This document shows, piece by piece, positions 3,028 to 20,721 of a stretch of DNA of 28,060 nt (position 1 is the first letter of the stretch; each line of letters starts with the position of its first letter). Source of the DNA: a virus. Under the pieces are notes generated by a model that was given only the letters and a program-made list of their open reading frames with translations, was not told where the DNA came from and did not search any database. The position numbers and the translations under genes are program-made. The stretch covers positions 1 through 28,060 of the IMG/VR virus record IMGVR_UViG_3300033153_006868, one strand, 5' to 3'.

Positions 3028-3041
3028 GATTCATTACTTAT

Positions 3042-4055
3042 TTATGGATTTTCAAATCCTGCAATTTGCTCTTTTGAAGGGCCAATATATTCCCCATACT
3101 CATAATATGCCTCATCAGCTCTATATTGTTCGTAGAGTTCATCAACCTCAGAAGGTATAGTGCTATGAGGACTTAGATCAAGGCTTGTCGTAGCATCTTG
3201 AGGATATGTTGGCACAGCAATATGTAAACATCCAGCGAAATTAGCCTGATTATTTGCGCTTGGCCCCCAGGCATTGTTTGCCCCGCAGGTATCCCATGTT
3301 TGATCACAGCCTTTGTACATGACATAAGTACAAGTATTATCAACTGCCACAGGGAGTTCAATATCAAGAGTAACAGTGTGGGTAGAAGATACAAAATCCT
3401 TAACCTTTCGATAATACGTCTTGCTACCTTTTGTAATCTCTATCCTGCCATAATTCCAGTAATCATCGGCTTGGGTCAAAGCATCATCTACGAGCGTAGT
3501 AGTGCTGCCACTATCGGCTGTCCCTGACGCCTTCAAAGAAGATAGATCGGCATTCCCATCTGTATTACATTCAGTTCCTCCGAACACCCAGGGACATAGA
3601 CGTTGATAACAAATCTTCAGAGCCTTGCGATTTAATGGCTTTCCGATGGTTGCTGATACTGTCAACCATCTTCTATCTATCTGGGGGCGTTTGTCTATAT
3701 AACCGTTGAATATTTCATTATAATTTTGGCTATCACCAAGAGCATCCAAATATACACGTTTAATCACTATCCTTTTATTTTGAAAATCCTCATTATGCGC
3801 ATAGGCAGCCATATCTCTTGAAACATTATCGAACTTAATTGTTGCCCGTTGAATCTGTCCCTCAAGAGATTGGTTAATTCCACTAACCTTTATAGCTTTG
3901 GCAGTGTAAACATTTCCACCTGTGGGAAAAGTTATGTTTGACTTACACGCAGCATAACGAAGGGTAGAACTCAATTCTAATTCTACGAGAATAACTGGAC
4001 GCTTCTGTGCTGCGTCTATCTGGGTAACGACTGCACCGGTAAGGTTTTTTGGCAT
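3042..4055 (-). CDS. Minor tail / baseplate-hub-like protein (DUF2163-BR0599 type)
   Basis: A 337-residue protein with the layout of the DUF2163/BR0599 tail family: an N-terminal beta region (PVILVELELSSTLRYAAC, NVYTAKAIKVSG), a middle part containing FNGYIDKRPQIDRRWLTVSATI, and a C-terminal part with conserved cysteines. Six cysteines stand out: C149, C154, C163 (ICYQRLCPWVFGGTEC) and C250, C257, C276 (YKGCDQTWDTCGANN, NFAGC). The position next to the tail tip gene matches lambda gpL, whose C-terminal domain binds an iron-sulfur cluster; a similar cluster here is inference. The start ATG overlaps the preceding stop (TAATG). It probably forms part of the tail-tip ring between the tube and the gpJ-like protein. 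Confidence 0.75.
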   Translation of the reverse strand: MPKNLTGAVVTQIDAAQKRPVILVELELSSTLRYAACKSNITFPTGGNVYTAKAIKVSGINQSLEGQIQRATIKFDNVSRDMAAYAHNEDFQNKRIVIKRVYLDALGDSQNYNEIFNGYIDKRPQIDRRWLTVSATIGKPLNRKALKICYQRLCPWVFGGTECNTDGNADLSSLKASGTADSGSTTTLVDDALTQADDYWNYGRIEITKGSKTYYRKVKDFVSSTHTVTLDIELPVAVDNTCTYVMYKGCDQTWDTCGANNAWGPSANNQANFAGCLHIAVPTYPQDATTSLDLSPHSTIPSEVDELYEQYRADEAYYEYGEYIGPSKEQIAGFENP

Positions 4056-4414
4056 TATATCTCCTTTTCAAAAATTACTGAACACCGCCAGTATACATTG
4101 CCTACGGGCGACATCCTTAGAGACCCATCAACCCATCTCCCTGTCATATCTGCGCCACTATTGACATATGATGGGACAGACTTCCAAGAGAATGAATGAT
4201 ATTCACCATAATTATCTTTGTAATGCGTTAGTAAGGTATCTCTTTCAGAGTTCGTCAAGGCATTGAATTGTAATTCATATTTCTCTGTCGGAGTAGAGGC
4301 GATATTCATGTATTCCTTCTTGCCGGACTCAGATTGTGTAATCACGTTGTAATATGCAGGAGGATAAGTAACTACAACGTTTGGCGTTAATGTAAAATCA
4401 TCACCCGCTGCCAT
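4055..4414 (-). CDS. Minor tail protein, lambda gpM-like
   Basis: A 119-residue protein between the tape measure and the hub-like gene, overlapping each neighbour by one base (TAATG at both junctions). The sequence contains EKYELQFNALTNSERDTLL, then YHSFSWKSVPSYV and a C-terminus with GNVYWRCSVIFEKEI. This resembles small minor tail proteins of the gpM / distal-tail group, which have a P-x-W-x-VP-like core and end in a Y/F-W-x-x-x-V strand. Its role would be to connect the tape measure end of the tail to the tip complex. The call relies on gene order and general pattern and not on a decisive motif. Confidence 0.6.
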   Translation of the reverse strand: MAAGDDFTLTPNVVVTYPPAYYNVITQSESGKKEYMNIASTPTEKYELQFNALTNSERDTLLTHYKDNYGEYHSFSWKSVPSYVNSGADMTGRWVDGSLRMSPVGNVYWRCSVIFEKEI

Positions 4415-6744
4415 TATGCTCTCCCTCGAATTATTGAACGAATCCGTCCGTCATTATGGTATGACCGTACTACCGCACCTGGGGCGACTCGTTCTGCAAT
4501 TTGTGTTGCCATTTCAGCATATACTCTCCGCAGTGTGGCTTGATCTTGAAAAACTGGATTATTCATAATAATATTGACGGTTTTACTTTCCCCCGAACCA
4601 ACTGGAGCTAAAGCAGCCATTTGCTTCGGGGTAAATATCCCTTCATCTTTCTTTGCAATGATTGGTACTTCATCAGGCCCCAATCCTTCATGTGCTCGTG
4701 GGGCATGATCAAATACCGCTGGCATTACTGTTTTTAACGTTCCGCTTTCGCCGACAATACCGCCTGTATGCATCTTCTGTGCTCGTATCATCTCCACGTT
4801 AGCTAAACCCGCCGCTATCGCCCCCGCTGCTGCCACTGGAGCTAAAGCAGGACCAATAACAGGTATCACCGCTGTGGATTTATAAGCCGCTACTGCCGCA
4901 GAGTAGGTATTGATTATCGCCTCAGTAATAGCCATCAACTTATAAGCCTTAAATGCTGCCTTATTCTCTTTGCCCAAATATTTGAAAAAATCAGCCCAAT
5001 TACCTGCTGTCCTGGCTAAACTATCTCTTGTTAGCTGCGCTTGTTCATCCAGTCTTTTTTTCTTCTCTTTTGTTACCCACTTGTCGATAAGGTTTTGTTC
5101 AATTTTCAAGTCTTCGTATTTCTTTGCCTGCATGTCAATTAGCTTGAATACTTGTTTGGTGTAGTCTTGACCATATTCCCCCATATCAGAATACATATCA
5201 CGAAGAGCAGAAACCTGAGCATCAGTGTCTATAGTCGGTGTAATTGCAGAAGGTGGTAGATATTGTTCCCAATCGAACGGTTCTGGATATTCTATAGCAG
5301 CTAATTCCTTTGCTTTTTTGATATAAGCATCCATAGAGGTGTCTACAACATCTGGAGGCAAATATTGTTCCCAGTCAAACGGAGGCGCATATTCAATTGC
5401 AGCTAATTCTTTTGCCTTCTTAATGTATTCTTCCATCAACATACCAACATTACCCGCACCACCTGCTTCAGTTACACCAGCAGCAGACGCTTGTACAGCC
5501 TCTCTTAATGCAGTTACTCTTGCTTCAATCTCAGAGATTATCTCCTTTGCTTTTTCATAGTTTGTTGGAGCAGTAACCAAATCTGCTAATGCTTCCTTAG
5601 CTTTCAACAACTCCTCCTTGTATCCAGCAATGATTACTTTCTGTTCGTTTAGGATTCGTTCACTATTCTTGACCGCTTTTTCTATCTCACTTGTTATCCC
5701 CAAAAGCTTCTCTGCCACTCCAGTAGGACTGAATTTATGGAGGAGATTCAAGAGCTTCAAAGTGGTGGTCGCGGCTTTTCTAATCTTATGTAATCCTTCC
5801 CAAAGAGGAATGGCGATATATTCCAACCATGCTATCTCTACCACTCTGAATATTTCTTTCCAACCACGAAGAGCATCTGAAACTGCCGCCGCTCCCAAGA
5901 TAATAGCCTTGAAGGAGGCAAGTACCTTATCTGCCATTTCCCTCGCCCAGTCATCTAACCTTCCTTCTTTTTTCAACTCTTTGATCCGATCAAGGAGCAA
6001 TCCTACTCCCTCTTTCATGAAATCGAAAACACCCGCCTCCATAACCAGATTCCTGAATTGAAACCAAGCATCAGAAATCATAGACATGGCGCCTTCCCAT
6101 GTCCTCGACAAACCTTCAGTAGCTCCTCTGAATTGGCTATCCGCCTTCTTCCAAGCCTCCATCATCATTCTTCTGGTTTCTTCGGCGGAGTAATGAACAC
6201 CTGCTTGAAAACCCATCATCGCCAGAATACCACGTTCACGAAACATATCTGCCGCAGCTGCTCCTGCACTATACATCCGGATAACCTGTGAGGTGGTCTC
6301 TTCTATACTCAATCCTGCAACCGCCGCAAGATCACCAATCATTGGCATCCATTCCTTTACTTCTTCAACTCCACCTTTCATTACTCCAGAAAGGGCAGTT
6401 GCTGCCCCCATTACATTTCTGTATTCAAATGGTACCCGACCGGCGTAATCCGCCATCTCTCTGAAAAGTCTGTTTCCTTCTTCAACACTGCCCAAAAGAT
6501 AACGCAAACGTACCCGATAATTCTCTGCTTCTGAAGCAGCGGAAACAAAACTCTTCGCCACCAAACTGAGTCCTAATCCAGCCAAAGCTGTTTGTAAAGA
6601 AAAGACAGACCGTTTCACTTTGGAAAGAGCAGCCACTCCACTCTTCTGAAACCTACGAAACTGTGTTTCCGCTTGCATTGTGGACCGTCTCAATGGACCT
6701 AAATCGGCTCCAAATGAAGTTACAAGCGTTCCAAGATCAGCCAT
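4414..6744 (-). CDS. Tape measure protein
   Basis: A 776-residue protein that sets tail length and probably helps DNA entry through the inner membrane. The N-terminal ~230 residues match the tape-measure N domain: FVSAASEAENYRVRLRYLLGSVEEG, VPFEYRNVMGAATALSG and GLSIEETTSQVIRMYSAGAA. The middle is helical and charged. Residues ~615-650 form a hydrophobic Ala/Pro/Ile-rich stretch (PVIGPALAPVAAAGAIAAG) that could be the membrane-active segment. It is followed by the familiar HTGGIVGE and KKDEGIFTPKQMAAL motifs near the C-terminus. A tandem duplication lies at residues ~440-498 (annotated separately). At the usual ~0.15 nm per residue the tail would be roughly 115 nm (inference). It overlaps the gpT-like frame by 8 bases. 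Confidence 0.93.
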   Translation of the reverse strand: MADLGTLVTSFGADLGPLRRSTMQAETQFRRFQKSGVAALSKVKRSVFSLQTALAGLGLSLVAKSFVSAASEAENYRVRLRYLLGSVEEGNRLFREMADYAGRVPFEYRNVMGAATALSGVMKGGVEEVKEWMPMIGDLAAVAGLSIEETTSQVIRMYSAGAAAADMFRERGILAMMGFQAGVHYSAEETRRMMMEAWKKADSQFRGATEGLSRTWEGAMSMISDAWFQFRNLVMEAGVFDFMKEGVGLLLDRIKELKKEGRLDDWAREMADKVLASFKAIILGAAAVSDALRGWKEIFRVVEIAWLEYIAIPLWEGLHKIRKAATTTLKLLNLLHKFSPTGVAEKLLGITSEIEKAVKNSERILNEQKVIIAGYKEELLKAKEALADLVTAPTNYEKAKEIISEIEARVTALREAVQASAAGVTEAGGAGNVGMLMEEYIKKAKELAAIEYAPPFDWEQYLPPDVVDTSMDAYIKKAKELAAIEYPEPFDWEQYLPPSAITPTIDTDAQVSALRDMYSDMGEYGQDYTKQVFKLIDMQAKKYEDLKIEQNLIDKWVTKEKKKRLDEQAQLTRDSLARTAGNWADFFKYLGKENKAAFKAYKLMAITEAIINTYSAAVAAYKSTAVIPVIGPALAPVAAAGAIAAGLANVEMIRAQKMHTGGIVGESGTLKTVMPAVFDHAPRAHEGLGPDEVPIIAKKDEGIFTPKQMAALAPVGSGESKTVNIIMNNPVFQDQATLRRVYAEMATQIAERVAPGAVVRSYHNDGRIRSIIRGRA
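5251..5427 (-). repeat. Tandem 34-residue repeat inside the tape measure gene
   Basis: Two copies of YIKKAKELAAIEY-xx-PFDWEQYLPP start at residues 440 and 474, exactly 102 bases (34 codons) apart. 23 of 25 core residues are identical, but many codons differ at the third position (for example TTG/CTA for Leu and GCA/GCT for Ala). The protein repeat therefore appears conserved by selection and is not a recent DNA duplication. Confidence 0.9.
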
Positions 6745-7123
6745 GTCTTTTCCCCTTCTTGCGATGTATTCTATTATGTCTCTTTGCTAATTCCAACAGA
6801 ATAACCTTCTGTGTCTCTACCGATTGTGCCTTCTGCACGCTTCTCCTCGTACTGTTCCAATCCGGTATGAAATCACTGGGAGTAGCTTGTTTCGGATGTG
6901 CCCCTTTCTTTGAATATATAGCAAGCGCCAAATTGTATATCACGGAACACACCTTTGCCCAACCATAATCATCCCTATACTTTCCAATAGGATCAATACT
7001 ATCATACGCCATCCATTCACCAACCTGCTCCGACGTCAACTCATCCAACAGATAATCCGGATGAGGATAGCCTAATTCTCGACAGAGTCGGAAGTAGAAT
7101 TGGCGCTCTGGACGGCTTCGGAG
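6737..7123 (-). CDS. Tail assembly chaperone T-part, made as a -1 frameshift extension (gpT-like, DUF4035)
   Basis: This frame has no convincing start of its own: TTG at 7048 is the only nearby candidate, and it would cut off conserved residues. Read upstream, the frame continues as ERQFYFRLCRELGYPHPDYLL, the typical N-terminus of the DUF4035/minor tail T family, followed by LTSEQVGEWMAYDSIDPIGK and DFIPDW. It is reached by a -1 shift at 7123-7129 in the preceding chaperone gene. That gives a fusion of 124 + 128 = 252 residues. In lambda-like phages the G and GT proteins bind the tape measure and recruit tube subunits but are absent from the virion. The adjacent tape measure and tube genes fit this role. 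Confidence 0.88.
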   Translation of the reverse strand, partial: LRSRPERQFYFRLCRELGYPHPDYLLDELTSEQVGEWMAYDSIDPIGKYRDDYGWAKVCSVIYNLALAIYSKKGAHPKQATPSDFIPDWNSTRRSVQKAQSVETQKVILLELAKRHNRIHRKKGKRHG

Positions 7124-7494
7124 TTTTTTGTTAGATTCTTCTTATCCTCCTCCGAAATTCTATTCAACTCCTGTGCCTTGTTTACAATCAACTCCAATCG
7201 GGCTGCACTCATATTCTGGGATAGGATAGAAACATCTTCCGGTCTCAGAAGATTGTTTCCTTCCTCGTCACAAACTGTATGAACCGCCAATTTTGCACGG
7301 AAATCATCAAGAGAGCGTTTGAATTCCGATTGCCCTTTATCATCTATCACTTCTTTCAACAAACTCTGTTCAAATCGATCCCGCTCACGTCCAGTCATTT
7401 GACGAACGAATACGAATTCACCCTTTCCAAGATCGACTTTCTCCTTCCTCAACTTCTCCTTCTTCAATAAACCTTCCCTTGTCAATACCTTCAT
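7072..7494 (-). CDS. Tail assembly chaperone, gpG-like
   Basis: A 140-residue, charged, helical protein (MKVLTREGLLKKEKLRKEK, GEFVFVRQMTGRERDRFEQ, AVHTVCDEEGNNLL) between the tail tube and tape measure genes. This is the position and layout of phage tail assembly chaperones. FVRQMTGRERDRFE is a family-like segment (glutamine/arginine-rich loop after a short beta strand). It starts at the ATG at 7494 behind a GGAGGATAG ribosome site. Residues 123-124 are encoded by the slippery heptamer A-AAA-AAC. Most ribosomes would end at 7072 to give this short form; a minority would shift to -1 and add the T-part. Confidence 0.85.
   Translation of the reverse strand: MKVLTREGLLKKEKLRKEKVDLGKGEFVFVRQMTGRERDRFEQSLLKEVIDDKGQSEFKRSLDDFRAKLAVHTVCDEEGNNLLRPEDVSILSQNMSAARLELIVNKAQELNRISEEDKKNLTKNSEAVQSANSTSDSVEN
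7123..7129 (-). promoter_or_regulatory. Programmed -1 ribosomal frameshift site (A-AAA-AAC)
   Basis: On the minus strand the heptamer AAAAAAC lies in the zero frame as A-AAA-AAC (codons ACA AAA AAC). After slippage the next codon is CTC at 7123-7121, which leads directly into the DUF4035-like frame. Zero-frame translation ends 48 bases further on, at the TAG 7074-7072. This is the canonical X-XXY-YYZ type used for lambdoid G/GT tail chaperones. Confidence 0.88.
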
Positions 7495-7520
7495 TCTACT
7501 ATCCTCCTATCTATGTTAGC

Positions 7521-7964
7521 TTACGCCGGCGATCCAGAATAACTACCCGAGTTGACCGTGATTGCGCCTGAAATCTTAATAGTCACTTCTAATGTTATAG
7601 GCGTGTCTGGAATCGTCAACGGAAAGCCTGTGACCAACCCTTCAAACTCAATTGAAGTCTCATCATCATCCGGGAGAACAATCTCATAGTTTTGAAGATC
7701 ATCCGACTCAAAATCAGAGAGTATGGTATCATATCCTACCCGATCAAAAAGCATTGAAAGAGTAATCTCCCCCGCATCTCTGAGTCCAGTAATGAACGTT
7801 CTGTAACCCCCCGTGGTGTCAAATGCTGTGGTATCATGTACATCTCGTGACGCCGAAGGCCCCCCGATGTTAGTGATTCCCGCTATTGTTTCCCACGTAC
7901 TGTTAGTAGTATTCCATCTACGAAATACTGTCCCAGTTCCTACAACTCCCTCTACTGCTGTCAT
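7521..7964 (-). CDS. Major tail (tube) protein
   Basis: A 147-residue protein that polymerises into the tail tube. The sequence follows the lambda gpV-N / tail tube pattern: an N-terminal strand (GTVFRRWNTTNSTWETI), then GGPSASRDVHDTTAFDTTGGYRTFITGLRDAGEITLSM, a core with FDRVGYDTIL, and strands ending LTIPDTPITLEVTIKISGAITV. The D-x-T-x-F-x-T-x-G-x-R-x-F-I-x-G-L-x-D-x-G motif is highly characteristic of this group. It starts behind a strong GGAGGTAAATAGTT site, as expected for an abundant structural protein. It sits between the tail terminator and the tail chaperones. Confidence 0.92.
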   Translation of the reverse strand: MTAVEGVVGTGTVFRRWNTTNSTWETIAGITNIGGPSASRDVHDTTAFDTTGGYRTFITGLRDAGEITLSMLFDRVGYDTILSDFESDDLQNYEIVLPDDDETSIEFEGLVTGFPLTIPDTPITLEVTIKISGAITVNSGSYSGSPA

Positions 7965-7994
7965 AACTATTTACCTCCTATCTTGTTTATATTG

Positions 7995-8396
7995 TTATCT
8001 TCGATGTACTGAAAACGTTGCCACGAATCTCGCACGATCATTTTCATCTCTATCAAGTAGGGCAGGTTCATCTACCCCCTTGATAAGCAAATACTCTGTA
8101 CCACCTTCTGATTCTCCATTGATACCATGTAAATACTCCTGGATATCATGTATCAATTCCCATCCCGTTAAGTAACTATTGTTCCTAACCCGTACCTGAA
8201 CAGATGGTTGATAATAAGCAATTCCTCCTTTTCCTGTCAAAGTTAGTAACGGAGCATCCCCTGGAATATCAAAAACCGTTACACAGTTATCTGGAGATGC
8301 TGGCTCTTTCCCAACAAATAGATTAGTAGCAAATGTCAATCCGAGACTGGAATCTGCTTCTAACAATGAGCATATGTCTTTGGATGCTGGATTCAC
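7995..8396 (-). CDS. Tail terminator (phage minor capsid protein 3-like)
   Basis: A 133-residue protein. It starts at GTG 8396, overlapping the stop of the preceding gene (GTGA). Features are a helical N-terminus (SKDICSLLEADSSLGL), a P-x-x-P-D-N-C-V-T-V-F-D-x-P-G segment, then YYQPSVQVRVRNNSYLTGWELIHDIQEYLHG and a C-terminal F-V-A-T-F-S-V-H-R-R strand. This matches the minor-capsid/tail-terminator family (gpU-like fold), which caps the tail tube and joins it to the head. Position directly before the tube gene agrees. Precise family membership is by eye. Confidence 0.78.
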   Translation of the reverse strand: MNPASKDICSLLEADSSLGLTFATNLFVGKEPASPDNCVTVFDIPGDAPLLTLTGKGGIAYYQPSVQVRVRNNSYLTGWELIHDIQEYLHGINGESEGGTEYLLIKGVDEPALLDRDENDRARFVATFSVHRR

Positions 8397-9267: not shown

Positions 9268-9645
9268 TTAATCAAATGAAGTTATGGCAGTTAAAGATAC
9301 TTTCTGCTTTGACATGGCGGCTGCCATTTTCCCAGTTGTGTCCATTGCGAGGACCTGTTGCCCATACAAAGTAGCCTCCAACCCTTTCCCCGTCATACCC
9401 TGGTAAGTTACATTCGCGCCACTTGCTCCCGCCTTTTGTATCTGCTGTTCTCTTGTCGCAGCAATCAAATGCGCAGTAAGCCACCGCTCAATTTCCTTCT
9501 TATGTCCATCAGAAAGATCAGTATCATCCCCAAGCACCTCTGTCACCGTATGATTGGCCCCAAGAATGTAAGCATCTACAATAGCATCCGCAAGGTCAGT
9601 ATCGATAATCTGTTTCACTTCCTCTGCTGTAACCCGCGCAGTCAT
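9268..9645 (-). CDS. Head-tail connector (adaptor) protein, gp6-like
   Basis: A 125-residue, mostly helical protein: MTARVTAEEVKQIIDTDL, then IVDAYILGANHTVTEVLG and HKKEIERWLTAHLIAATRE. It ends in a Gly/Ala/Thr-rich tail (GMTGKGLEATLYGQQVLAMDT). Helical adaptors of this size and the V-x-x-I-I-D-T-x-L / W-x-x-A-H-x-x-A motifs are typical of phage gp6-like connector proteins that sit under the portal. It starts at the ATG at 9645 behind AAGGAGAATATATA and shares one base with the stop of the upstream glycosyltransferase. The glycan cassette therefore lies between capsid and connector genes without its own visible transcription unit. Confidence 0.78.
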   Translation of the reverse strand: MTARVTAEEVKQIIDTDLADAIVDAYILGANHTVTEVLGDDTDLSDGHKKEIERWLTAHLIAATREQQIQKAGASGANVTYQGMTGKGLEATLYGQQVLAMDTTGKMAAAMSKQKVSLTAITSFD

Positions 9646-10418
9646 TATATATTCTCCTTATTCAACATTTCTAACGCCGCTTGGCGAACTTCTTCAGGTT
9701 TAATCATAGACATTGCTTTTTTGCAGTGTTCACAAGGATAATACCTACCACAAGGAGATTCTGGAAGATCAACATAGAAATTCCTCTGGTACGTATATCC
9801 AGTAATCTTCGGATCAGCAAACCCTCCAAATACTACCACGGCAGGAGTATTCATACTTGCCGCCATATGATGCGTCCCACCATTGACTGTCATCACCAAG
9901 GAAGCATGTTTCACAATCCCAGCGGCGATTCGAAAACTCGGGGAATTTATTGCAGTTACCTCAGGGAGAATCTTCGTTTTTCCGTCCGGGTCAAATTGGT
10001 ACACAGGAATTGGAAAATCCTTGACCACCTTCTCCCAACGTTCAAATCCCCAATCCTTATTTTGACTACCTGGTTTTCGAACAATAGGTTCTACAATTGC
10101 AAACGGAACCTCTGGAATCAGACATAACGCTTCAGCCTGTTCCTGTGCGGTCAAGCGAATATGACCTGCACGAGCACGATACTTCGTATTCCATACAATT
10201 GTCAATCCTGGATTACGACTCCATCGCAAGATGTATGGACGAGCAGAGGGTCCATCAACAATATGTAATGGAGAATTGCTATCCACTGCGGGATGATTCT
10301 TCCATACTGGATGATTGCGTGGATTTCCACTTACCCCGCAGATGGCCACAGATTTTCCAAGGATAGAATAAACTACTTCCGCTCTCCCTAAGGCCATTAT
10401 TTCATCACCATAGCTCAT
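9645..10418 (-). CDS. Glycosyltransferase, GT9 (heptosyltransferase-like) family
   Basis: A 257-residue GT-B-type protein. The N-terminus has SYGDEIMALGRAEVV (a GD[E/Q]I-like motif). The C-terminal half holds SLVMTVNGGTHHMAASMNTP at ~174-192, with the N-G-G-T-H-H-M-A-A motif of GT9 sugar-nucleotide binding, then VVVFGGFADP. Three cysteines follow (C223, C229, C232 in SPCGRYYPCEHC), resembling cysteine clusters in other phage GT9-like proteins. At 257 residues it is shorter than typical heptosyltransferases (~320-350), so the N-terminal domain may be reduced. GT9 enzymes transfer sugars from nucleotide-activated donors; donor and acceptor are unknown here. Neighbours suggest modification of a phage or host surface structure. 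It overlaps the methyltransferase by 14 bases. Confidence 0.82.
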   Translation of the reverse strand: MSYGDEIMALGRAEVVYSILGKSVAICGVSGNPRNHPVWKNHPAVDSNSPLHIVDGPSARPYILRWSRNPGLTIVWNTKYRARAGHIRLTAQEQAEALCLIPEVPFAIVEPIVRKPGSQNKDWGFERWEKVVKDFPIPVYQFDPDGKTKILPEVTAINSPSFRIAAGIVKHASLVMTVNGGTHHMAASMNTPAVVVFGGFADPKITGYTYQRNFYVDLPESPCGRYYPCEHCKKAMSMIKPEEVRQAALEMLNKENI

Positions 10419-11052
10419 TACATTTTCCTCTAAATACGAATGTCCAGATATCTTCTCTACCTAATTCAATTTCATCATCTCGAATCTCAAGCAAAGTGAA
10501 ACCCAACCCCTTTGTCATGAAATCCATGAAAGAAGTTTGCGTAAAATAATAATAATGCTCATCTTTTCGAAGATGCTTCGATTGCAACAAATGAGGCAGA
10601 TCCCTAAACAACGGAATTGAAACAAACAAAAACTGGTTTTTCATCTGACGCAATAAGTAACTGAAATTCTCTATATGCTCCAAACTATCAAAAAAAGTAA
10701 TTCCAGCAAACATTTCAATGCCTTGTTCATATGGATCATACCAGAGTTCGTTTTTGATTAACCATTCTTTTGCAACTGGATTTATGTCATATCCAAAACC
10801 ATTCTCATATGTTTGTAAGAAAGAACCACAACCTATTCCAATATCCAAAATTTTCCCTTGTGTATATTTACGCACCAACTCCTTTCTAAAGGTACTGATC
10901 CTCCGACCCATTTCAGTTTTTGCATATCTTTCATACTTATTGAAGTAATCTTGATTGTATTTCTTTCCATCATCCACTGGATAGTATCCTATATTCTTCT
11001 CCGGAAACCAATTTAATGTATCCCCTAAATACTCCCGCAAACTCGCATCCAC
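10405..11052 (-). CDS. SAM-dependent methyltransferase (class I)
   Basis: A 215-residue protein with motif I ILDIGIGCG at residues 68-76 and a second acidic strand ending GYDIN (D89). A motif IV-like segment ITFFDSLEHIEN lies at ~118-129, and LFVSIPLF comes after it. This matches the methyltransferase 11/23 group seen in glycan and O-antigen clusters. The start appears to be GTG at 11052, four bases after the previous stop; the ATG at 11054 is in another frame. The substrate is not evident. With the adjacent TylF-like methyltransferase and glycosyltransferases, the likely role is methylation of a sugar or small molecule, not DNA: no DNA-recognition domain or catalytic DPPY/NPPY motif is seen. 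Confidence 0.82.
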   Translation of the reverse strand: MDASLREYLGDTLNWFPEKNIGYYPVDDGKKYNQDYFNKYERYAKTEMGRRISTFRKELVRKYTQGKILDIGIGCGSFLQTYENGFGYDINPVAKEWLIKNELWYDPYEQGIEMFAGITFFDSLEHIENFSYLLRQMKNQFLFVSIPLFRDLPHLLQSKHLRKDEHYYYFTQTSFMDFMTKGLGFTLLEIRDDEIELGREDIWTFVFRGKCNELW

Positions 11053-11056
11053 ATTC

Positions 11057-11656
11057 TTATCCTACTCTTTTGAAAAAGATACTACTTCCCCTACAAAAGA
11101 TTTGCTTAAACTTATTCTTATTCACTTCTTCATCTACCGCCTTCACAATTCCGGGGCACATTTTATTTTTGTAATCGTGGAATCCCAGAATACCGCCTAC
11201 CGAAATTCGGTCTTCTAAGAATTCATAACCTAAAACAGTGGGTTTGTACAAATCCATATCCAACCAAGCAAAACAGAACCTCTTATCCTTCAATTGTGCT
11301 GGGAGCGTTTTTTCTATTAACCCCTGAATAGGAACTAAAACACCATTCAATTTTTCTTTGGCGATTTCCAATCTGAATTGTTCCAAAGTTATATGAAACC
11401 ATCCTCCTTTCTTTAAGGAACTTTCAATTCCCGTTCCCTCATCTGTGTATGGTAAACCTTGAAAAGTATCGCACGCGTAAACTCTCTTGTTGAGTGACAA
11501 GTCATCTACCACACGCGCTAAGTGAAAAGAATTCTTCCCGGTTCCAACACCTAATTCAATCACATCACCCCTTACCTCCCTACTCATAATCATGTGATAA
11601 ATGCAATATCTATTGAATACTTGCATTGTAGATTGCATCAGAAAATTATAACTCAT
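11057..11656 (-). CDS. TylF/MycF-type O-methyltransferase
   Basis: The protein has 199 residues from the ATG at 11656, which lies two bases after the previous stop and has an AAGGTG ribosome site nine bases upstream; an in-frame GTG at 11668 is possible. Motif I VIELGVGTGKN is at 32-42. ACDTFQGLPYTDEG at 61-74 is a hallmark of the macrocin O-methyltransferase family. AWLDMDLYKPT at 130-140 holds the metal-binding Asp pair, and GILGFHDYK at 155-163 follows. Family members methylate sugar hydroxyls in a SAM- and Mg-dependent way. Here it probably methylates a glycan built by the neighbouring transferases (inference). Confidence 0.88.
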   Translation of the reverse strand: MSYNFLMQSTMQVFNRYCIYHMIMSREVRGDVIELGVGTGKNSFHLARVVDDLSLNKRVYACDTFQGLPYTDEGTGIESSLKKGGWFHITLEQFRLEIAKEKLNGVLVPIQGLIEKTLPAQLKDKRFCFAWLDMDLYKPTVLGYEFLEDRISVGGILGFHDYKNKMCPGIVKAVDEEVNKNKFKQIFCRGSSIFFKRVG

Positions 11657-11658
11657 GT

Positions 11659-13779
11659 CTAATAACACCTTCTATAGTACTCGTCTGGAGATAATTCCAA
11701 TTTATTCACCAATTGCTTGCTACCAAGTGGAATGGCATAATAATTACAAACAAAGTAGATATACCTTCTTCGAGTTTCCTTATCTATACAAAATGCCTTT
11801 AGTTTCTCATACAAGTTTTCCACCATTACTTTTTCTTTCATTTGATGCACCAATCTTGCATCGTTACAGAAATGATACCCCATCGTAGCAAATTTCTTTC
11901 CTTTGACAAGTCCTTCAAAAATAGTAGTGGAAGAAAAAGCTGTGAAATAATCAAACGCGTTGAAAAGAGAATCAATATGCTCATCCACTTCAATCACATT
12001 CGAGTAATCACGGATGAAACCTACATCTGCCTCTTTCCGTTTCGCAAAAAATGTTTTGTAATGAGGATGATCCTTATATATGAAAGTCACTTCTGGATTA
12101 CTCCTAACCACTAAATCTACATATTCTTGAAACCCACTCACACCTGGAAACAAACTATACTTCAAACTCATATCAAAAACTGTCTGACCAAACATGACAA
12201 TATATTTCATTCCCTGTTTTAACTTGTATTTCTGATACAACTCTTCTTTCGATATAAACGGTTCTTGTGGAGTACGAGTATTTGAAGGATATTTTATCTT
12301 TTTGGAGCACTTAATCTTATCTATGTATCTAACAATTTCATTATCTGGTGTATATTGTAATCCTATTTTATCGAACAACAGTCGGTTATCAAAGAAAGCT
12401 TCTGTCCAGATATAGTTAATTCCATATTCCTGACAAATCTTTTCCAGAAAATCAGAAGAAGAATGCAATTTTTGAGCGATAATGACGTTGCAAAAATTAC
12501 GTCTTGTCAAAAATTCTACTTGTTGCTTATTATTATCAGGCCTCCAAATAAACAAATCCCGAAATATCCCTCTGTTATTATCGTATTCCTCTGTGTTTCT
12601 TTCAATATCCATAATTGAAACAGTGTACTTTTTCGCTATATGTTTGTTTGTTGCAATCCGTGTATAGAAATCCCGCTGTTTACCTCCCAAACGGACAATT
12701 AATAAGTTCTCCTTTCTGTTTCTTAATTTCTCAAATTCTGTAATTATCCTATCTTCTTCAATATTTTTATTACAATCATGCTCATATTTCAAACAATTAC
12801 AAAATGGAACGGGAGCAACATAGGCATAATTACTTAAATCCATACGCCGATTAGTGTAATTTTCAGGTTTATGATATCCACCGAAAATAAAGAAGGCCTT
12901 TTTACGCAATGCTATACAAAGAGGAATAAAAAAAGAAGGCCATGCTATCACCATATTCGATAGATACACTAATCCAACAGTAGTCCATATATCTACTGTA
13001 TCTAACTTCAAATCAATTCCTTTCAATTCACCATAGTAATCATCAACCCCTGGAAATGTATCCGCTACCGAAATAAAACAATAATCATTCTTGTATCTAT
13101 CTATCAACAATTGAATATATTCTGTTTTGGGCAGTCTTGTTTCCACTTTCCATTCTTCTCTCAAAGTAGGATATTTGATGATACAAACCGGCTTTGTAGA
13201 TTTAATAGTGCCCAAAATCGACTGGGCACTCCTAATCCATTTTGGGTCAACAGGTAAATCATAATCAATCTTAGTGTTCTTCTCACCCAGCATTGTGTAA
13301 TTCAACGCATCAAGAATATTCAATCCTTTCCCATAGTTGAATTTAGGCTTTTCAACTTGCGAGGGAGGAGTCACCCAAATTCGCCGCGGCTGTTTCATCA
13401 AATTCTTCATTTGTAGTCTTAGATGAGTCCTCGGCTTCACAAAGAAAAGATTCTTTGGTTTCTCATAGTATAATTCAGGGAACGCCGTTGACAAATACAC
13501 CTTATCATATCTTTTTGTGGCCTCCATCACAAAAGGACGCATGTTTATTTGATCCCCAAAGCCGAAGTAATTATTATACCAGATTTCTTTCTTCTGCTTC
13601 GTCTTGCGGCGTGGAACACGAGTAACTGGAACAATCTGCTTCTGAAATGCCTTCGGCAACTCCTCTTCTGTAGTATAGAAGATTTGACCTGTCCTTATGA
13701 TTTGTCCTCTCCAACGTAAACTTCCACCACCAATTTTCTTCCATCCACGTATCCTTGCATCGACAGTGGAAGATTTCAT
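11659..13779 (-). CDS. Three-module glycosyltransferase: GGGSLR module, GT9-like domain, capsule-synthesis-like domain
   Basis: A 706-residue protein. Residues ~13-57 (WKKIGGGSLRWRGQII to QKQIVPVTRVP) form a small module also found in the protein encoded at 14826-15185. Residues ~65-340 look like a GT9-type domain: WYNNYFGFGDQINMRPFV, LSNMVIAWPSFFIPLCIAL and AFFIFGGYHKPENYTNRR, ending in a cysteine cluster (C327, C329, C336). Residues ~350-700 resemble capsule polysaccharide / Kdo-transferase-type GT-B domains: KYIVMFGQTVFDMS, TFIYKDHPHYKTFF and DYFTAFSSTTIFEGLVKGKKFATMG. The product probably carries two transferase activities. The N-terminal module may attach it to another phage protein (inference). 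It overlaps the cupin gene (ATGA) and has a GGAGGAGAA ribosome site. Donor sugars cannot be read from sequence. Confidence 0.75.
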   Translation of the reverse strand: MKSSTVDARIRGWKKIGGGSLRWRGQIIRTGQIFYTTEEELPKAFQKQIVPVTRVPRRKTKQKKEIWYNNYFGFGDQINMRPFVMEATKRYDKVYLSTAFPELYYEKPKNLFFVKPRTHLRLQMKNLMKQPRRIWVTPPSQVEKPKFNYGKGLNILDALNYTMLGEKNTKIDYDLPVDPKWIRSAQSILGTIKSTKPVCIIKYPTLREEWKVETRLPKTEYIQLLIDRYKNDYCFISVADTFPGVDDYYGELKGIDLKLDTVDIWTTVGLVYLSNMVIAWPSFFIPLCIALRKKAFFIFGGYHKPENYTNRRMDLSNYAYVAPVPFCNCLKYEHDCNKNIEEDRIITEFEKLRNRKENLLIVRLGGKQRDFYTRIATNKHIAKKYTVSIMDIERNTEEYDNNRGIFRDLFIWRPDNNKQQVEFLTRRNFCNVIIAQKLHSSSDFLEKICQEYGINYIWTEAFFDNRLLFDKIGLQYTPDNEIVRYIDKIKCSKKIKYPSNTRTPQEPFISKEELYQKYKLKQGMKYIVMFGQTVFDMSLKYSLFPGVSGFQEYVDLVVRSNPEVTFIYKDHPHYKTFFAKRKEADVGFIRDYSNVIEVDEHIDSLFNAFDYFTAFSSTTIFEGLVKGKKFATMGYHFCNDARLVHQMKEKVMVENLYEKLKAFCIDKETRRRYIYFVCNYYAIPLGSKQLVNKLELSPDEYYRRCY

Positions 13780-14123
13780 GTTAATTCTCCTCCAAGCGTT
13801 ACTCTCTTGATGTCATCCTCACTGTACTCCACATACATCTCCTCAATCATCCCTGAATCTTCATATACTCTGAATTCATGTAGTTGTCCTGGTCGTACGG
13901 TGAAACATTGTCCCTCTGTCAATATCGTCTGCCTGCGCTCTCCATTCAACTCCTCTGTTACAATTCCTACTCTCCCCCATAACAAAACAAACAAATTATA
14001 CTTAGCTACATGAGAATGCCAACTGCACCTGTAATTCGCCAGTAATTTCAAGAAGGAAGTACAATGAGTAGAATCTTGACGAATTATCCATCTCTCCCCC
14101 CATACTTTGTTTTGCCTATCCAT
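13776..14123 (-). CDS. Cupin-domain protein, mannose-6-phosphate isomerase II-like
   Basis: A 115-residue single-domain cupin. Cupin motif 1 is WHSHVAKYNLFVLLWGRVGI, with metal-ligand candidates H36 and H38, followed by K41 and N43. Motif 2 is FTVRPGQLHEFRV, with H82. The N-terminus KVWGERWIIR resembles the WG-x-E/R start of type II phosphomannose isomerase / GMP cupins. It could isomerise a sugar phosphate or bind and modify a nucleotide sugar for the cassette; a non-catalytic binding role is also possible. The expected full set of isomerase residues was not confirmed. It overlaps the upstream gene by 8 bases and the large transferase by ATGA, so it is clearly part of the cassette. Confidence 0.8.
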   Translation of the reverse strand: MDRQNKVWGERWIIRQDSTHCTSFLKLLANYRCSWHSHVAKYNLFVLLWGRVGIVTEELNGERRQTILTEGQCFTVRPGQLHEFRVYEDSGMIEEMYVEYSEDDIKRVTLGGELT

Positions 14124-14829
14124 TTTCCAACGTCTCCCTCAATCCAATCTTCGGAAAACAATCTATCTTACTGATAGGACTGAGATTGTATATTTCTATT
14201 CCCAACTCTTCCGCATCCTTCGCTATCACTGGAAATCCTTTCAAATGCTTTTGGAATGGTGGTTTTCCCTTTACCTGTTGCCCTGGGGGCATGTGTGAAC
14301 CGTGCCAATGACTGTGCATATCTTCTGCATCCATAGTCATATCAAACCCTAACAGATTTATTCTCCGTACCCCCAAATGGTACGCCAAACTAATGGCAGC
14401 TGCGCCTGAATTCGCATTCCAAGAAACCTTTGAAGGATCAGAGGATATCCCTTCCCTTCTCTCCTTATCACGTTCAAGAAATTTAATACCTTCCATTTTG
14501 TTACGTGAACGGTTTGCGAATTTCTGATCACAACATACTTTCAATCCTGGCCATTCTGCTAACTTTATCCGGTGTTTCAAATACCAATGACTATCACCGA
14601 AGAACAGAATATCAACCCACGTTCCAAGCTGATATGCATTGTTAATTCCTATCACATGCCGATTATGGAGAGGTCTCATGTAATCAGAATACGCCGAAGG
14701 GGAAAGCCTTCCCGTGTATACTTTCTGTATCACCTCTGAAGGAACTTCAAATTCGTACGGTACGGAAGTTCCTCCCCCAATAATCCAGCACGTAGCACCT
14801 TCCCACAATCGGGGAACAGTCCAAATCAT
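14116..14829 (-). CDS. MptE/DUF115-like Rossmann protein of the glycan cassette
   Basis: A 237-residue protein. CWIIGGGTS at 14-22 is a nucleotide-binding-like loop, VIGINNAYQLG at 59-69 and DILFFGDS at 73-80 follow. Then come WNANSGAAAISLAYHLGVR at ~137-155, INLLGFDM at 157-164 and a histidine-rich MHSHWHGSH at 171-179. This pattern (GGGxS, N-x-x-x-x, SG-x-x-A-x-x-L-A, LLG-x-D-M) is typical of the DUF115 / 6-hydroxymethylpterin-pyrophosphokinase MptE-like group and sialyltransferase-like folds. These are often found in surface glycan and flagellin-glycosylation loci. The biochemical role is uncertain: nucleotide-sugar binding or sugar transfer is most likely. The gene overlaps the GGGSLR protein gene (ATGA). 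Confidence 0.68.
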   Translation of the reverse strand: MIWTVPRLWEGATCWIIGGGTSVPYEFEVPSEVIQKVYTGRLSPSAYSDYMRPLHNRHVIGINNAYQLGTWVDILFFGDSHWYLKHRIKLAEWPGLKVCCDQKFANRSRNKMEGIKFLERDKERREGISSDPSKVSWNANSGAAAISLAYHLGVRRINLLGFDMTMDAEDMHSHWHGSHMPPGQQVKGKPPFQKHLKGFPVIAKDAEELGIEIYNLSPISKIDCFPKIGLRETLENG

Positions 14830-15185
14830 GCATTCAATTCCTCTACCAACTCTTTGGCAGCCTCTTCCCGAAGCCCTTTCTCGTTCATAACCTTACCCGA
14901 CACAGAATTAACAACATCCCACCAACCTCCGGTTGAACGTTTCTGTGCTTTGTAGATTTCTTCAGTATCAGAAGAAGGCTCCCTTCTACGAGCGGTGAAA
15001 GGCTGTATGGGCTCAACTACTGTCTCTGGAATATCTTCCAGCGCAACTACCTGCTTACGAAAGGCAAGCGGAACTTCCTCCGGGCGTGCGGTAAAAACCT
15101 CATTTGGCTTTATAATTCTACCACGAATATACCGGAGGGAGCCCCCGCCTATTTTTCGCCACTGTATTTCTTTACTTTCACTCAT
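14826..15185 (-). CDS. Small protein with GGGSLR module, next to the major capsid gene
   Basis: The protein has 119 residues from the ATG at 15185; GTG at 15188 is too close to the ribosome site. Residues 9-53 (WRKIGGGSLRYIRGRIIK to FRKQVVALEDIP) align with residues 13-57 of the 706-residue glycosyltransferase. By eye about 23 of 44 positions are identical, including an eight-residue run KIGGGSLR. The C-terminal half is charged, with EEIYKAQKRSTGGWWDVV and EKGLREEAAKELVEEL, possibly a helix or a short linker. No known function is recognised. Position immediately after the capsid gene would fit a minor capsid or adaptor protein, with the shared module as a docking or beta-barrel element (inference). 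Confidence 0.7.
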   Translation of the reverse strand: MSESKEIQWRKIGGGSLRYIRGRIIKPNEVFTARPEEVPLAFRKQVVALEDIPETVVEPIQPFTARRREPSSDTEEIYKAQKRSTGGWWDVVNSVSGKVMNEKGLREEAAKELVEELNA

Positions 15186-15215
15186 CACAATCTCCTCTAT
15201 TAGTTAACCACCAGC

Positions 15216-16295
15216 TTACGCAGCAAGTAACACGATACCGCAGTTCCCATCTTGGTCAGAACGAATCTGAGGAACCTGAATGGTCAGAACCTTGTACTTC
15301 GTGATAAACTTGCCTTCAGTCTGCCACTCAACATTCTGAATAGGCATACCCCTTACCAACCTAACAACGTCACTTGTCATCTGTACAAGTAGTACGTGAT
15401 TTGCTGTAAGGGTATCCACTACCTTAACGTCCTTGATTCCAGCTATCTTCAGAATTCTTTCTCTGATGGTAGTTCCTGGGGTCGTAGTATCGTAATCCTC
15501 ATCCAACACCGTTTCATATGCAGTTGGAATATACAGCATCCAAGGACCGTAATGTTTGGCATCAATACTGGCTTGTTTCATATCCAAAACATCTGTCAGA
15601 ATCTGAGCTGCTGTTTTCCCCGAAGCATCCCAGTTTGCGCTGAGAGTCACTTCGTTGATATCCGGATAATTGAGATAAGAATAAATCTTATTCCTGGATC
15701 TATCATCCTTGGTTCCCCAAGCATAATCGGTATCCGTAAACAGCATCGATTCCAATTTCTCATTGACCTTACGAGCTGCCCTTTCAGCAGAAGTAGTATC
15801 CAGAGGATTACCCAACTTCCTACTGGCCTCAAGTACCCTGGCATTGATTTCATAATCCACATGAATTATCGGAATTGGAAGGTAATTGGTCTGATAGACA
15901 GGACGATCCCCTCTACTTCGGGAAACTCCGTCCATCGTCAAATCAGCCTCCATCGCATTCGATACATCATGCCACTCAAGTACCGTGGTACCCATTGCAT
16001 TACCGAGGTCATACGTCAAACCATTTGCAATGAGATCCGCAACGCCATTCAAGCGAGTCTCACTCACCTTGAGAACGGCATCATCCAATTGTTTCCACTC
16101 ATCTCTACGCAGCGTGGCGGCATTCACCTGCACAGCTTTGTAGTTTTTGGGATTCTTTATATCCCCGCCTGTATAGGCACGTCCATCTTTACCAAGCCAT
16201 GGACGCATACTACCAGGGTTCAATCTTCCTTCCCCTGCCATATACGCTGCCACATCACCATGCACCTGTCCATTTCTCAATATTACATCGATCAT
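15216..16295 (-). CDS. Major capsid protein (HK97 fold, encapsulin-like group)
   Basis: A 359-residue protein placed after the decoration protein, with a strong GGAGGTAAATGACAA ribosome site. Segments resemble encapsulin/Linocin-like and related HK97-fold capsid proteins: TTVLEWHDVSNAMEADLTMD, NYLPIPIIHVDYEINARVL and SAERAARKVNEKLESMLFTD. Later come a GPWMLYIPTAYETVLDEDY segment, then ILKIAGIKDVKVVDTLTANHVLLVQMTSDVVRL and a final beta strand KYKVLTIQVPQIRSDQDGN. The A-A-R-x-V-x-x-x-x-x-x-L-F-x-G/D element and the I-P-x-x-Y-x-x-x-L-D-x-D-Y motif fit shell-forming proteins. No protease propeptide is obvious: the scaffold is provided by the nested gene upstream, and the N-terminus looks short. 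Confidence 0.85.
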   Translation of the reverse strand: MIDVILRNGQVHGDVAAYMAGEGRLNPGSMRPWLGKDGRAYTGGDIKNPKNYKAVQVNAATLRRDEWKQLDDAVLKVSETRLNGVADLIANGLTYDLGNAMGTTVLEWHDVSNAMEADLTMDGVSRSRGDRPVYQTNYLPIPIIHVDYEINARVLEASRKLGNPLDTTSAERAARKVNEKLESMLFTDTDYAWGTKDDRSRNKIYSYLNYPDINEVTLSANWDASGKTAAQILTDVLDMKQASIDAKHYGPWMLYIPTAYETVLDEDYDTTTPGTTIRERILKIAGIKDVKVVDTLTANHVLLVQMTSDVVRLVRGMPIQNVEWQTEGKFITKYKVLTIQVPQIRSDQDGNCGIVLLAA

Positions 16296-18401: not shown

Positions 18402-20720
18402 TCATGGCATTTTCTCGACAAGATCGAGATCAATGAAAGTTACCTCGGACTCCCCTGGAGCACCCATCATCCTACAAAATCCTCCAAGAGGTTTCTTATT
18501 CGTAGCTAACATATCATCTACCTTCATTGTATGTTCAACTTTGATGTGTCCTGCCCCTCCCGTCCATGCTCCAGCAGGATTCTTTGTCCAGCTTTGAATT
18601 GGAGTATCAATAGACCCCCCACGATACACCATATAAGGTTTCTCTTCATATTCCCACTTTATTGTTTCCCAGAAATCATCAAAATTATCAATTCCCTGTT
18701 CTGCAGCTTCCTTACGATAAAAATCCTCCCACCAGTCTTCACACTCTTTTCGTGCACGTTCAAGACGTAAACTTTTTCCTCTCTTCCATTCCAAGTATGC
18801 CTTCTCTTCCATATCAGCGGAACATCGTAAAACAGATCCAACTGCGCTATCTTTATCCAAAAAATGCTTTACAATCTCTTGATCTGCTTTCTTCTGTATA
18901 CCTCCCGTAAGACCATGAGCCCGTAATAATGCACTCGCTTCTCGTATGGCCTCAGTGGAATGCCCAAGACGACGAAATTCCACGTTCCATTCCGGTCCTG
19001 CCAAAAGATTCAAAGGATCATATTGCTCATGTATTCTTGTCTTGATTGATACTGGAATTTCAAATCGCTCAATAGCGGCACCTTTTGGCGCCTCCGGGAG
19101 TTTGGGAAGTTTAGCTGGTGGTGCCATATCAACTTCTTTCACAACTAACTTAGTCAGTGGAATTTTCTTACCATGGAAATAACTATCAAACATGATTTGC
19201 TTTGATGAAACTACCCGAAACTGCGCCCCTGCCTGTTGTATTACCTCTTTTTCCACCTCAAAATTACCTAATCCAATTTTCTCTATGTCCACAAATTTAA
19301 CTATATTATTTCTTTTTGAAACAAACTCTATCAAATACCCACCCTCATTCGCAAAACTACTCATGCCTTGTATATCTTTAGTCCAAGACTCTTTCGTAAG
19401 AAAAGAAAAAGAATTATCTTTTATCTTAACTTGCCCACGATGTGCAAACTTGAAAACCTTCCCTTCATAGTTAGCAGAACCATTGATTAATCTATTCATT
19501 GATGCATATTGTTTTTCTGCAATCGCGCGTTTTCTACTCTGTAAAATATCATTTCCTGTAAATTCAAAAGTATCCGCTTTTCCAACATCTGCATATTGAT
19601 AATACCGAGTATATTCTTTCCCTTGTTTCCAATCAGCCACAGCCTCATGAATTCGGATACGTTCTGCTTCTTCTAAATTATCAATGAACTGTTTTGGAGA
19701 AGGTAATTCTTTTGGAACTTCAGGCACCTTCCCCACTTTCTTTTCTTCCTCCTTCTTCACGGGGATTGCTACACATCGACAATTTGGGTGGAGAGGTATC
19801 ATATTCTGTATTTCATTCAGACTGAATACCTTACCTTCCAACGCTGCACACTCAGGGCATACCTTGTATCCGGCCGTCACCCACTCCGCTTTGACCTTTA
19901 CTCCTTCAACCGCCCAATTTTTCATCTCTTGGATGTTTCCCTGATGATGAGCCCGTATCACCTCGGTTCTTGCTAAAGTCCGTGCTCTCCTCTCCGCTGG
20001 AATGAACCTCCCCAGTGTGTCTGTTATTCCAAGATCTCCTACCGGTCCTGATATTGTTCTGGTTAGTAATTTTGCAAGCTCCCTTGGATTCTTTCCATCT
20101 GCAATCCCTTGTGTGAGCACTCGGCTTATCTGAGTGTCCATCTGACTGGTGATGCCTTTTAACTCCTGAAAAACACGAGTGTACAACACCCCTACCCGAT
20201 CCATATGGAAGGGAGTTGACATGCTCGCTGATATTCCACCAGTCTCTGATAAGGGAGGGACTTTATACCCAGCCCCTTTCATTTCCATCCGCGCCCGAAT
20301 GACACCTCGTTGATATGAATCCTTGATGTACTTGTTTGTCCATGCTGTTTCGATGGGAGTTCCTATCTGTTGCATTGTCCCTACTTCAAGGATTCCCTTT
20401 GCCTCCTGCCCCTGTAACCAATTCATAAAAGCATTGACTTTCTGTTCAGACCGAGGAAACGCAAACGCCTTTCTACCCGGTAGGGAGAAATCAGGAGCTG
20501 CTAATGTTACCACCTTGAACTCTTTGTCGAGCATACCAAAACAATCTTGCTCTATGATAGCCCTACGGATTATTCCTCTCAACGCCCTGAACCGTTTATT
20601 CAAATCACGAACAAAAGCATTTCGTAGGTGAGTTGTCCTTGTCGGGTCGTACCGAGAGACAGCAGTCGCTTTCTCTTTCTGGGTAATGATCGTATCTATC
20701 TTTCTGGCTGGTAATGCCAT
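18402..20720 (-). CDS. Minor head protein, SPP1 gp7-like, with two ADP-ribosyltransferase-like C-terminal regions
   Basis: The protein has 772 residues from the ATG at 20720 (MALPARKID), one base after the portal stop; a TTG further upstream would read through the portal tail and is less likely. Residues ~250-320 are the head morphogenesis (Mu F / SPP1 gp7) core: RARTLARTEVIRAHHQGN, CPECAALEGKVF and LHPNCRCVAIPV. Residues ~375-535 look ART-like: KFAHRG near 426, FSFLTKESW, and EVEKEVIQQAGAQFRVV near 487. Residues ~690-772 again look ART-like: MVYRGGS, SWTKNPAGAW, DDMLATNKKP and PGESEVTFIDL with an E-x-E. gp7 proteins bind the portal and enter the host with the DNA in some phages. An ejected mono-ADP-ribosyltransferase is therefore plausible (inference). 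The ART calls rest on motif order only. Confidence 0.75.
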   Translation of the reverse strand: MALPARKIDTIITQKEKATAVSRYDPTRTTHLRNAFVRDLNKRFRALRGIIRRAIIEQDCFGMLDKEFKVVTLAAPDFSLPGRKAFAFPRSEQKVNAFMNWLQGQEAKGILEVGTMQQIGTPIETAWTNKYIKDSYQRGVIRARMEMKGAGYKVPPLSETGGISASMSTPFHMDRVGVLYTRVFQELKGITSQMDTQISRVLTQGIADGKNPRELAKLLTRTISGPVGDLGITDTLGRFIPAERRARTLARTEVIRAHHQGNIQEMKNWAVEGVKVKAEWVTAGYKVCPECAALEGKVFSLNEIQNMIPLHPNCRCVAIPVKKEEEKKVGKVPEVPKELPSPKQFIDNLEEAERIRIHEAVADWKQGKEYTRYYQYADVGKADTFEFTGNDILQSRKRAIAEKQYASMNRLINGSANYEGKVFKFAHRGQVKIKDNSFSFLTKESWTKDIQGMSSFANEGGYLIEFVSKRNNIVKFVDIEKIGLGNFEVEKEVIQQAGAQFRVVSSKQIMFDSYFHGKKIPLTKLVVKEVDMAPPAKLPKLPEAPKGAAIERFEIPVSIKTRIHEQYDPLNLLAGPEWNVEFRRLGHSTEAIREASALLRAHGLTGGIQKKADQEIVKHFLDKDSAVGSVLRCSADMEEKAYLEWKRGKSLRLERARKECEDWWEDFYRKEAAEQGIDNFDDFWETIKWEYEEKPYMVYRGGSIDTPIQSWTKNPAGAWTGGAGHIKVEHTMKVDDMLATNKKPLGGFCRMMGAPGESEVTFIDLDLVEKMP

Positions 20721-20721
20721 G

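Follow-up and report, generated by a model that had tools for sequence, protein, structure and literature searches.

The viral record IMGVR_UViG_3300033153_006868, analysed over its full 28,060 bases (the window), belongs to an uncultured siphophage. Its minus strand encodes, in this order, terminase, portal, MuF protein, protease/scaffold, decoration protein, major capsid protein (MCP), a cassette of predicted sugar enzymes, connectors, tail tube, chaperone and tape measure protein. The cassette, which is the subject of this work, consists of seven tandem minus-strand genes at 9645-15188 flanked by the MCP and the first connector (Table 1). The MCP profile matches encapsulins in the PDB, and the protein forms the conserved upstream anchor of the site as well as a candidate acceptor for glycosylation. 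A preceding sequence-only reading had described the genes, their order and their placement between capsid and head-tail connector, and all seven open reading frames (ORFs) were found on the minus strand.

Table 1. Features of the cassette and its two anchors in the window; values after family names are E values unless marked otherwise (aa, amino acids; HMM, hidden Markov model; RBS, ribosome-binding site).
Feature	Position	Strand	Evidence or remark
MCP, DUF6260/encapsulin-related HK97 fold	15216..16295	-	PF19774 2e-20, phrog_771 2e-23
GGGSLR protein	14826..15188	-	likely start ATG 15185 behind RBS AGAGGAG
MptE/sialyltransferase-like (Maf-like) enzyme	14116..14829	-	phrog_4603 1.4e-33
Cupin	13776..14123	-	cupin/phrog_7851 1e-12
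706-aa fusion enzyme	11659..13779	-	GGGSLR domain + two glycosyltransferase modules
Second GGGSLR N domain inside 706-aa enzyme (~residues 13-55)	13615..13743	-	49% identity, E 3e-10; HMM 9e-16
Glycosyltransferase module 1, D3 orf12-related (residues ~70-342)	12754..13572	-	phrog_6804 1.6e-32
Glycosyltransferase module 2, Capsule_synth core (residues 517-637)	11869..12231	-	PF05159 8.5e-5, above cut-off
TylF-type O-methyltransferase	11057..11668	-	PF05711 3e-14, 53.2 bits vs cut-off 23
Class I methyltransferase	10405..11052	-	Methyltransf_23 1e-8, phrog_6564 2.5e-55
GT9-like glycosyltransferase	9645..10418	-	Glyco_transf_9 PF01075 2e-5, 24.5 bits vs cut-off 22
First head-tail connector (DUF4054-like), conserved downstream anchor	9268..9645	-	PF13262 0.005, phrog_37884 7.5e-10

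The joining of the genes by overlapping start and stop codons, as first described, was recovered as six overlaps of 1-14 nucleotides (nt), namely 4, 8, 4, 10, 14 and 1 nt, and one 4-nt gap, while 27 nt lie between the MCP and the cassette. The lack of a clear promoter was likewise confirmed, as promoter-like sites did not exceed chance (33 in 11 kb vs 26.5 +/- 4.7 in shuffled sequences). The co-directional, overlapping genes form one predicted transcription unit with the head genes, which agrees with the suggested co-expression with the structural genes. The GC content is 33-37% within the cassette and 43-46% outside. The cassette was found again at 97% DNA identity in a second locus (L008) and as a diverged copy on a 57.6-kb contig (L011). 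Because of this recurrence, and because the ratio of nonsynonymous to synonymous substitution (dN/dS) against relatives is 0.04-0.12, the cassette genes are not chance ORFs. A megablast search of plasmids with the cassette gave no match.

Related sites were collected with both conserved proteins. An MCP search of 2.9 million viral contigs gave 174 relatives, of which 80 were kept; a search with the Maf-like alignment found more than 500, of which 80 were kept, and a genome scan added 17. Removal of near-duplicates left 130 loci, and 71 complete sites from uncultured phages were compared. The MCP lay no more than 2.5 kb from the Maf-like gene in all 110 loci with at least 1.5 kb of upstream sequence, and this held for 45/45 loci found by the Maf-like search alone, in which the MCP was not used. 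Relatives with the cassette at random positions as simple cargo, which had been named as an argument against the original proposal, were thus not encountered among these loci. The order MCP, GGGSLR protein with N and C domains, Maf-like gene was present in 62/71 complete sites, 61 of these with further cargo before the connector. The placement, at first called unusual, is therefore the rule in related phages, with smaller versions in the head regions of phages D3, PAJU2 and Psp6, and the gene set of the window, also called unusual, is one among many.

The block between the Maf-like gene and the connector is hypervariable and spans 0-8.4 kb. Its median length of 4176 bp (18-8382, n=43; 4223 bp in a larger set, n=64) compares with median gaps of 4 to 372 bp for 13 other neighbouring core-gene pairs in the head-tail operon. 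From this contrast it can be concluded that there is one cargo site, located between Maf-like gene and connector; among the core-gene gaps compared, the tail region held no such island. Isolated phages with related capsids (Brevundimonas phage MaInes, Halorubrum phage Hardycor1 and Klebsiella phage KpV2811) carry small proteins after the MCP and no sugar cassette there. The arrangement was not found described in a search of open-licence papers, which is weak evidence given that scope.

The first cassette gene encodes the GGGSLR protein, with the motifs GGGSLR..IIKP..F.A...IP..F in its N domain and W.DVVN..GK..NEK in its C domain. An AlphaFold2 model (predicted local distance difference test, pLDDT, 81) consists of two separate small domains. 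The protein had no Pfam or PHROG match and no tblastn match in 50,697 phage records, and its profile found nothing significant among PDB sequences. Foldseek of the model against a viral library returned nothing at E <= 0.001; most of the similarities covered one domain and were to small phage proteins without a name. N and C domains together occur at a conserved position in 64/71 complete sites. A feature absent from the sequence-only reading is that the 706-aa enzyme opens with another copy of the GGGSLR domain, which takes up its first ~55 residues. Fusions of this domain to cassette enzymes were found in four architectures, among them a 767-aa protein in L014, where it stands between an L012-type enzyme, a second Maf-like domain and an FkbM methyltransferase-like end (the end read by eye), and a fusion with a second Maf-like domain in L017.

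The GGGSLR C domain co-occurs with the Maf-like gene (62/64 sites with the domain vs 1/7 without; Fisher 1.3e-6, a statistic that ignores phylogeny). At sites without a Maf-like gene, L025, L095 and L097 have the N domain only and L092, L098 and L102 have neither domain. Exceptions are L096 and L066, with both domains and no Maf-like gene, and L100, with a Maf-like gene and no GGGSLR protein. From these sequence patterns we infer that the N domain may belong to the head, and the C domain with the linker to glycosylation, as acceptor or docking partner; the whole protein is proposed to be a head-bound adaptor and/or acceptor.

Some variants of this part of the site are worth recording. Two GGGSLR proteins with N and C domains stand in tandem ahead of the Maf-like gene in L032, L047, L052 and L076. 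In L066 (6675-9271), the place of the Maf-like gene behind the GGGSLR protein is taken by other transferase-like genes and by a sulfotransferase-like loop, as read by eye from the translations. In Enterobacter phage Mulvp2 (L003:3552-3902), the C-terminal part of a small post-MCP protein is of GWYNV type and, by eye, looks like the GGGSLR C domain.

The exchange of cargo is most visible among close relatives. The MCPs of the window, L010, L012 and L013 share 93-95% identity. In L010 nothing separates the Maf-like gene from the connector, in L013 only the GT9 gene is retained, and L012 retains the cupin, the GGGSLR domain of the big enzyme and GT9, with different enzymes between. The DNA similarity of window and L012 breaks off at window base 13620, immediately past the GGGSLR domain, and only residues 1-57 are matched at the protein level; the catalytic part in L012 has therefore been replaced and the putative tether kept. 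Over 741 pairs, cargo sharing did not rise with MCP identity (Spearman -0.27; one cluster is broad, so that sharing is if anything overstated). Between the window and L011, the proportion of synonymous differences (pS) was 0.38-0.47 for the genes of the 706-aa enzyme, the TylF enzyme and the methyltransferase, and 0.58-0.65 for the MCP, decoration, Maf-like, GGGSLR and connector genes, with purifying selection on all compared genes. With regard to the lower pS, it looks as if the enzyme block had moved between lineages more recently.

Cargo GC was below that of the backbone in 53/60 cases (mean -3.5 points, Wilcoxon 2e-10; window -5.9 points). This bias, together with a cargo content independent of capsid relatedness, would also be expected if the site were no more than a place that tolerates inserted foreign genes (morons) sharing no function. 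We regard this as very unlikely, since nearly all cargo that could be recognised belongs to glycan chemistry, the Maf-like gene is constantly accompanied by the GGGSLR C domain, and both the purifying selection (low dN/dS) and the GGGSLR fusions speak against it.

The cargo was examined in 37 islands comprising 208 proteins from ORF calls. Coding cover is near-complete, and 53,895 of 53,981 cargo residues (99.8%) lie on the head strand. According to Pfam, the islands encode glycosyltransferases of families 2, 7, 8, 9, 11, 29, 47 and 92, methyltransferases of the TylF and FkbM families and of types 11, 12, 21, 23 and 24, epimerases, dehydratases (GDP_Man_Dehyd up to 2e-114), sulfotransferases, radical SAM/B12-binding proteins and APS kinase, to which PHROGs adds UDP-glucose dehydrogenase and an aminotransferase. 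A sulfotransferase with a PI(L/F)(I/V)TG..RSG(T/S)S loop is present in 32/37 islands and is the last gene in 29; in the window's clade the last island gene is GT9, as in L011-L014. An APS kinase (PF01583) occurs in 3 islands, and the phages concerned seem to make their own sulfate donor. APS kinase-like genes at L033:10084-10479, L049:13537-13932 and L024:16360-16854, beside or near sulfotransferases, are likely the three matches.

None of the 208 cargo proteins (0/208) contained a membrane-like stretch in a simple hydropathy test, which did flag the tape measure protein. The test is crude, yet flippases or polymerases would not escape detection. This bears on the choice left by the sequence-only reading between decoration of virion proteins and a change of the host surface before release, of which we retain the first as the best reading (predicted). 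In the second, the enzymes would alter the lipopolysaccharide, capsule or flagella of the infected host late, preventing progeny from sticking to debris or excluding rivals. Capsule_synth, GT9 and GT2 families do build surface glycans too, variable surface-glycan loci look similar, and the D3 group converts the serotype of its host, though via other genes. However, the missing flippase, polymerase and membrane-like segments, the constant tie to MCP and GGGSLR protein, and a GGGSLR domain common to a head-operon protein and the enzymes make a host-surface function unlikely.

The glycosyltransferases could also hypermodify phage DNA against restriction, given that phage glycosyltransferases often act on DNA (reviewed in PMC12619734). 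This is highly improbable here: the genes are part of the late head operon, a DNA-modifying role does not suit sulfotransferases or TylF-type enzymes, and a thymidylate-synthase-type gene, needed for base hydroxymethylation, was found in 1/21 large phage records, some of which may be fragments. NeuB was found in 0/21 of these records; the first sugar would therefore be host-made or of another kind.

The enzyme proposed to attach this first sugar is the Maf-like protein of 237 aa. Residues 44-235 match phrog_4603, which is annotated as alpha-2,3-sialyltransferase and includes D3 orf7 and P1 PmgO. The AlphaFold2 model (pLDDT 94.5) has the archaeal MptE (8sd5) as its top PDB match in Foldseek (probability 1.00, E 3.8e-3, weak template modelling (TM) scores of 0.41/0.46), followed by GT29 sialyltransferases (probability 0.84-0.89, TM ~0.4). 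In a viral structure library it matches proteins named MptE-like and DUF115. By profile search of PDB sequences, MptE alone was returned, at E 0.26. The alignment of 52 homologues revealed a GGGxS motif and invariant residues, among others W3, W9, G18-G20, S22, H58, N63, D79, W137 and G161-D163. Maf flagellin transferases are members of the same Pfam family as MptE-like proteins.

Flagellar glycosylation offers the closest comparison. In Aeromonas caviae, Maf1 glycosylates flagellin in the cytoplasm and needs no lipid carrier for this (PMC4065374). The flagellar islands of Clostridium are hypervariable and carry Maf genes, some of those bearing Maf also lack NeuB, and one Maf type requires a small co-encoded partner, GlfM (PMC13317340). 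Here, too, a hypervariable block of sugar enzymes keeps a fixed position next to the gene for a polymer-forming protein, together with a Maf-type, presumably cytoplasmic transferase. The differences are that the neighbour is the capsid protein, as a candidate acceptor only, that the missing NeuB implies no own synthesis of nonulosonic acid, that the Maf-like protein is short and that a shared putative tether domain is fused to enzymes.

Among named phages, Pseudomonas D3, PAJU2 and Psp6, Enterobacter Mulvp2 and Klebsiella Eowyn resemble the window in combining a Maf-like gene (weak in Mulvp2) with a D3-orf12-like glycosyltransferase and a phrog_6564 methyltransferase. These genes lie in the head region in D3, PAJU2, Psp6 and Mulvp2, and in Eowyn the three are adjacent. 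The D3-orf12-like glycosyltransferase was found in 28 phage records, and the phrog_6564 methyltransferase was adjacent in all 28. The five phages differ from the window in having two or three enzymes only, no detected GGGSLR protein, and capsids that are unrelated or unplaced. The Maf-like ORF010 of PAJU2 carries the depositors' label 'structural protein'. In phage P1, PmgO is homologous to the Maf-like protein and PmgQ is annotated as a glycosyltransferase, but pmgO-pmgP-ppp-pmgQ is a late transcription unit of its own, away from the capsid gene. Within these late genes (L110, 5866-7052), PmgO matched the HMM at 2e-18 and PmgP is a weak homologue (0.0016). P1 pmgO, pmgP and pmgQ are not essential (PMC10695390), as expected for a decoration.

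The island might also glycosylate a different protein of the virion or phage, such as that of the tail tube, tail fibre or neck, with the capsid gene a mere neighbour. Mycobacteriophage tail tubes are glycosylated besides capsids (PMC12619734), and Caulobacter giant phages have Maf-like and methyltransferase genes between tail-fibre and endolysin genes. Set against this, the Maf-like gene of the window's group is fixed beside MCP and GGGSLR protein, and the tail region is without such an island, so that we consider another acceptor rather unlikely. In the Caulobacter phage CcrSC (L183, 6037-10523), the Maf-like gene, unknown genes and the methyltransferase perhaps serve tail glycosylation. In Tetraselmis viridis virus S20 (L182, 3616-9885), hypothetical proteins, a glycosyl transferase and a Maf-like protein lie downstream of the head genes.

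Taken together, the site is probably a head glycosylation island, with a predicted Maf-like start of virion-protein glycosylation, exchangeable extension and capping, and a GGGSLR tether. The late capsid transcript would also yield the GGGSLR protein, which would sit with the head. In the cytoplasm, the Maf-like enzyme would transfer the first sugar to a Ser or Thr residue in a head protein, be it the GGGSLR protein, the MCP or the decoration protein. The exchangeable enzymes would lengthen and cap this sugar; those of the window are two or three glycosyltransferases, two methyltransferases and the cupin. As a tether, the GGGSLR domain would bring fused enzymes to the site of the separate GGGSLR protein. 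The outcome would be virions with lineage-specific methylated O-glycans, often sulfated in relatives, and the benefit may be shielding or altered virion adhesion. A comparable case is found in mycobacteriophages, whose capsids and tail tubes carry O-glycans that are placed by phage-encoded glycosyltransferases and shield against antibodies; this is a different phage group, and the available text of these accounts (PMC12619734, PMC11652166, reviewing Freeman et al. 2023) describes neither a hypervariable island between capsid and connector nor a GGGSLR/Maf-like pair.

Several points weigh against this reading. The Maf-like protein misses the cut-off of the PF01973 MptE-like model (E 0.04, 14.1 bits vs cut-off 34.6) and resembles MptE only weakly in fold (TM-score 0.41-0.46), so that the Maf parallel serves as a working model and not as proof of membership. 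The GGGSLR fusions occur only in the window's own clade. The association of C domain and Maf-like gene takes no account of phylogeny, and most empty sites are distant relatives. Finally, Maf-like homologues lie away from the capsid gene in P1 (PmgO) and beside tail genes in Caulobacter phages; the acceptor therefore need not be the capsid.

A broader proposal, to which we would give slightly less than an even chance, is that of a capsid 'serotype locus' in a large uncultured tailed-phage group. Here, a single hypervariable glycan-synthesis island between capsid gene and connector would use a modular GGGSLR tether to direct exchangeable enzymes, often with sulfating or methylating activity, to a single dedicated head protein, giving near-identical capsids different glycan coats. 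Virion glycosylation in phages is based on few cases. It is already known as such; new are the fixed hypervariable island, the shared putative tether domain and the sulfating and methylating cargo. If true, virion glycosylation would be the rule across a phage group, with coats exchanged in blocks like bacterial surface-antigen loci. The island would provide a genetic handle on the purpose of shell glycosylation, be it shielding from host capsid sensors, grazers or antibodies, or adhesion, and a small tether domain for steering glycosyltransferases to a chosen protein. Moreover, the long-unexplained D3 orf7/12/13 and P1 pmgO would gain functions.

With regard to the remaining enzymes of the window, the TylF and GT9 family matches exceed the Pfam cut-offs. 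The cupin, found in 5/37 related islands with cargo and 92% conserved in L012, probably has a sugar-modifying or isomerase-like role. No host is claimed for the group, as the genome scan pointed to metagenome-assembled genomes of scattered phyla (Bacteroidota, Spirochaetota, Syntrophomonadaceae and others), in which binning noise is possible. Elsewhere in the window, the 784-aa MuF protein (18402-20756, minus strand) matches Mu_F at residues 209-331 only and has a long C-terminal extension without a Pfam match. A 68-aa protein on the plus strand (27532-27738) consists of sigma-70 region 2 alone (PF04542, 2e-11) and may be a phage sigma factor fragment or a split sigma factor.

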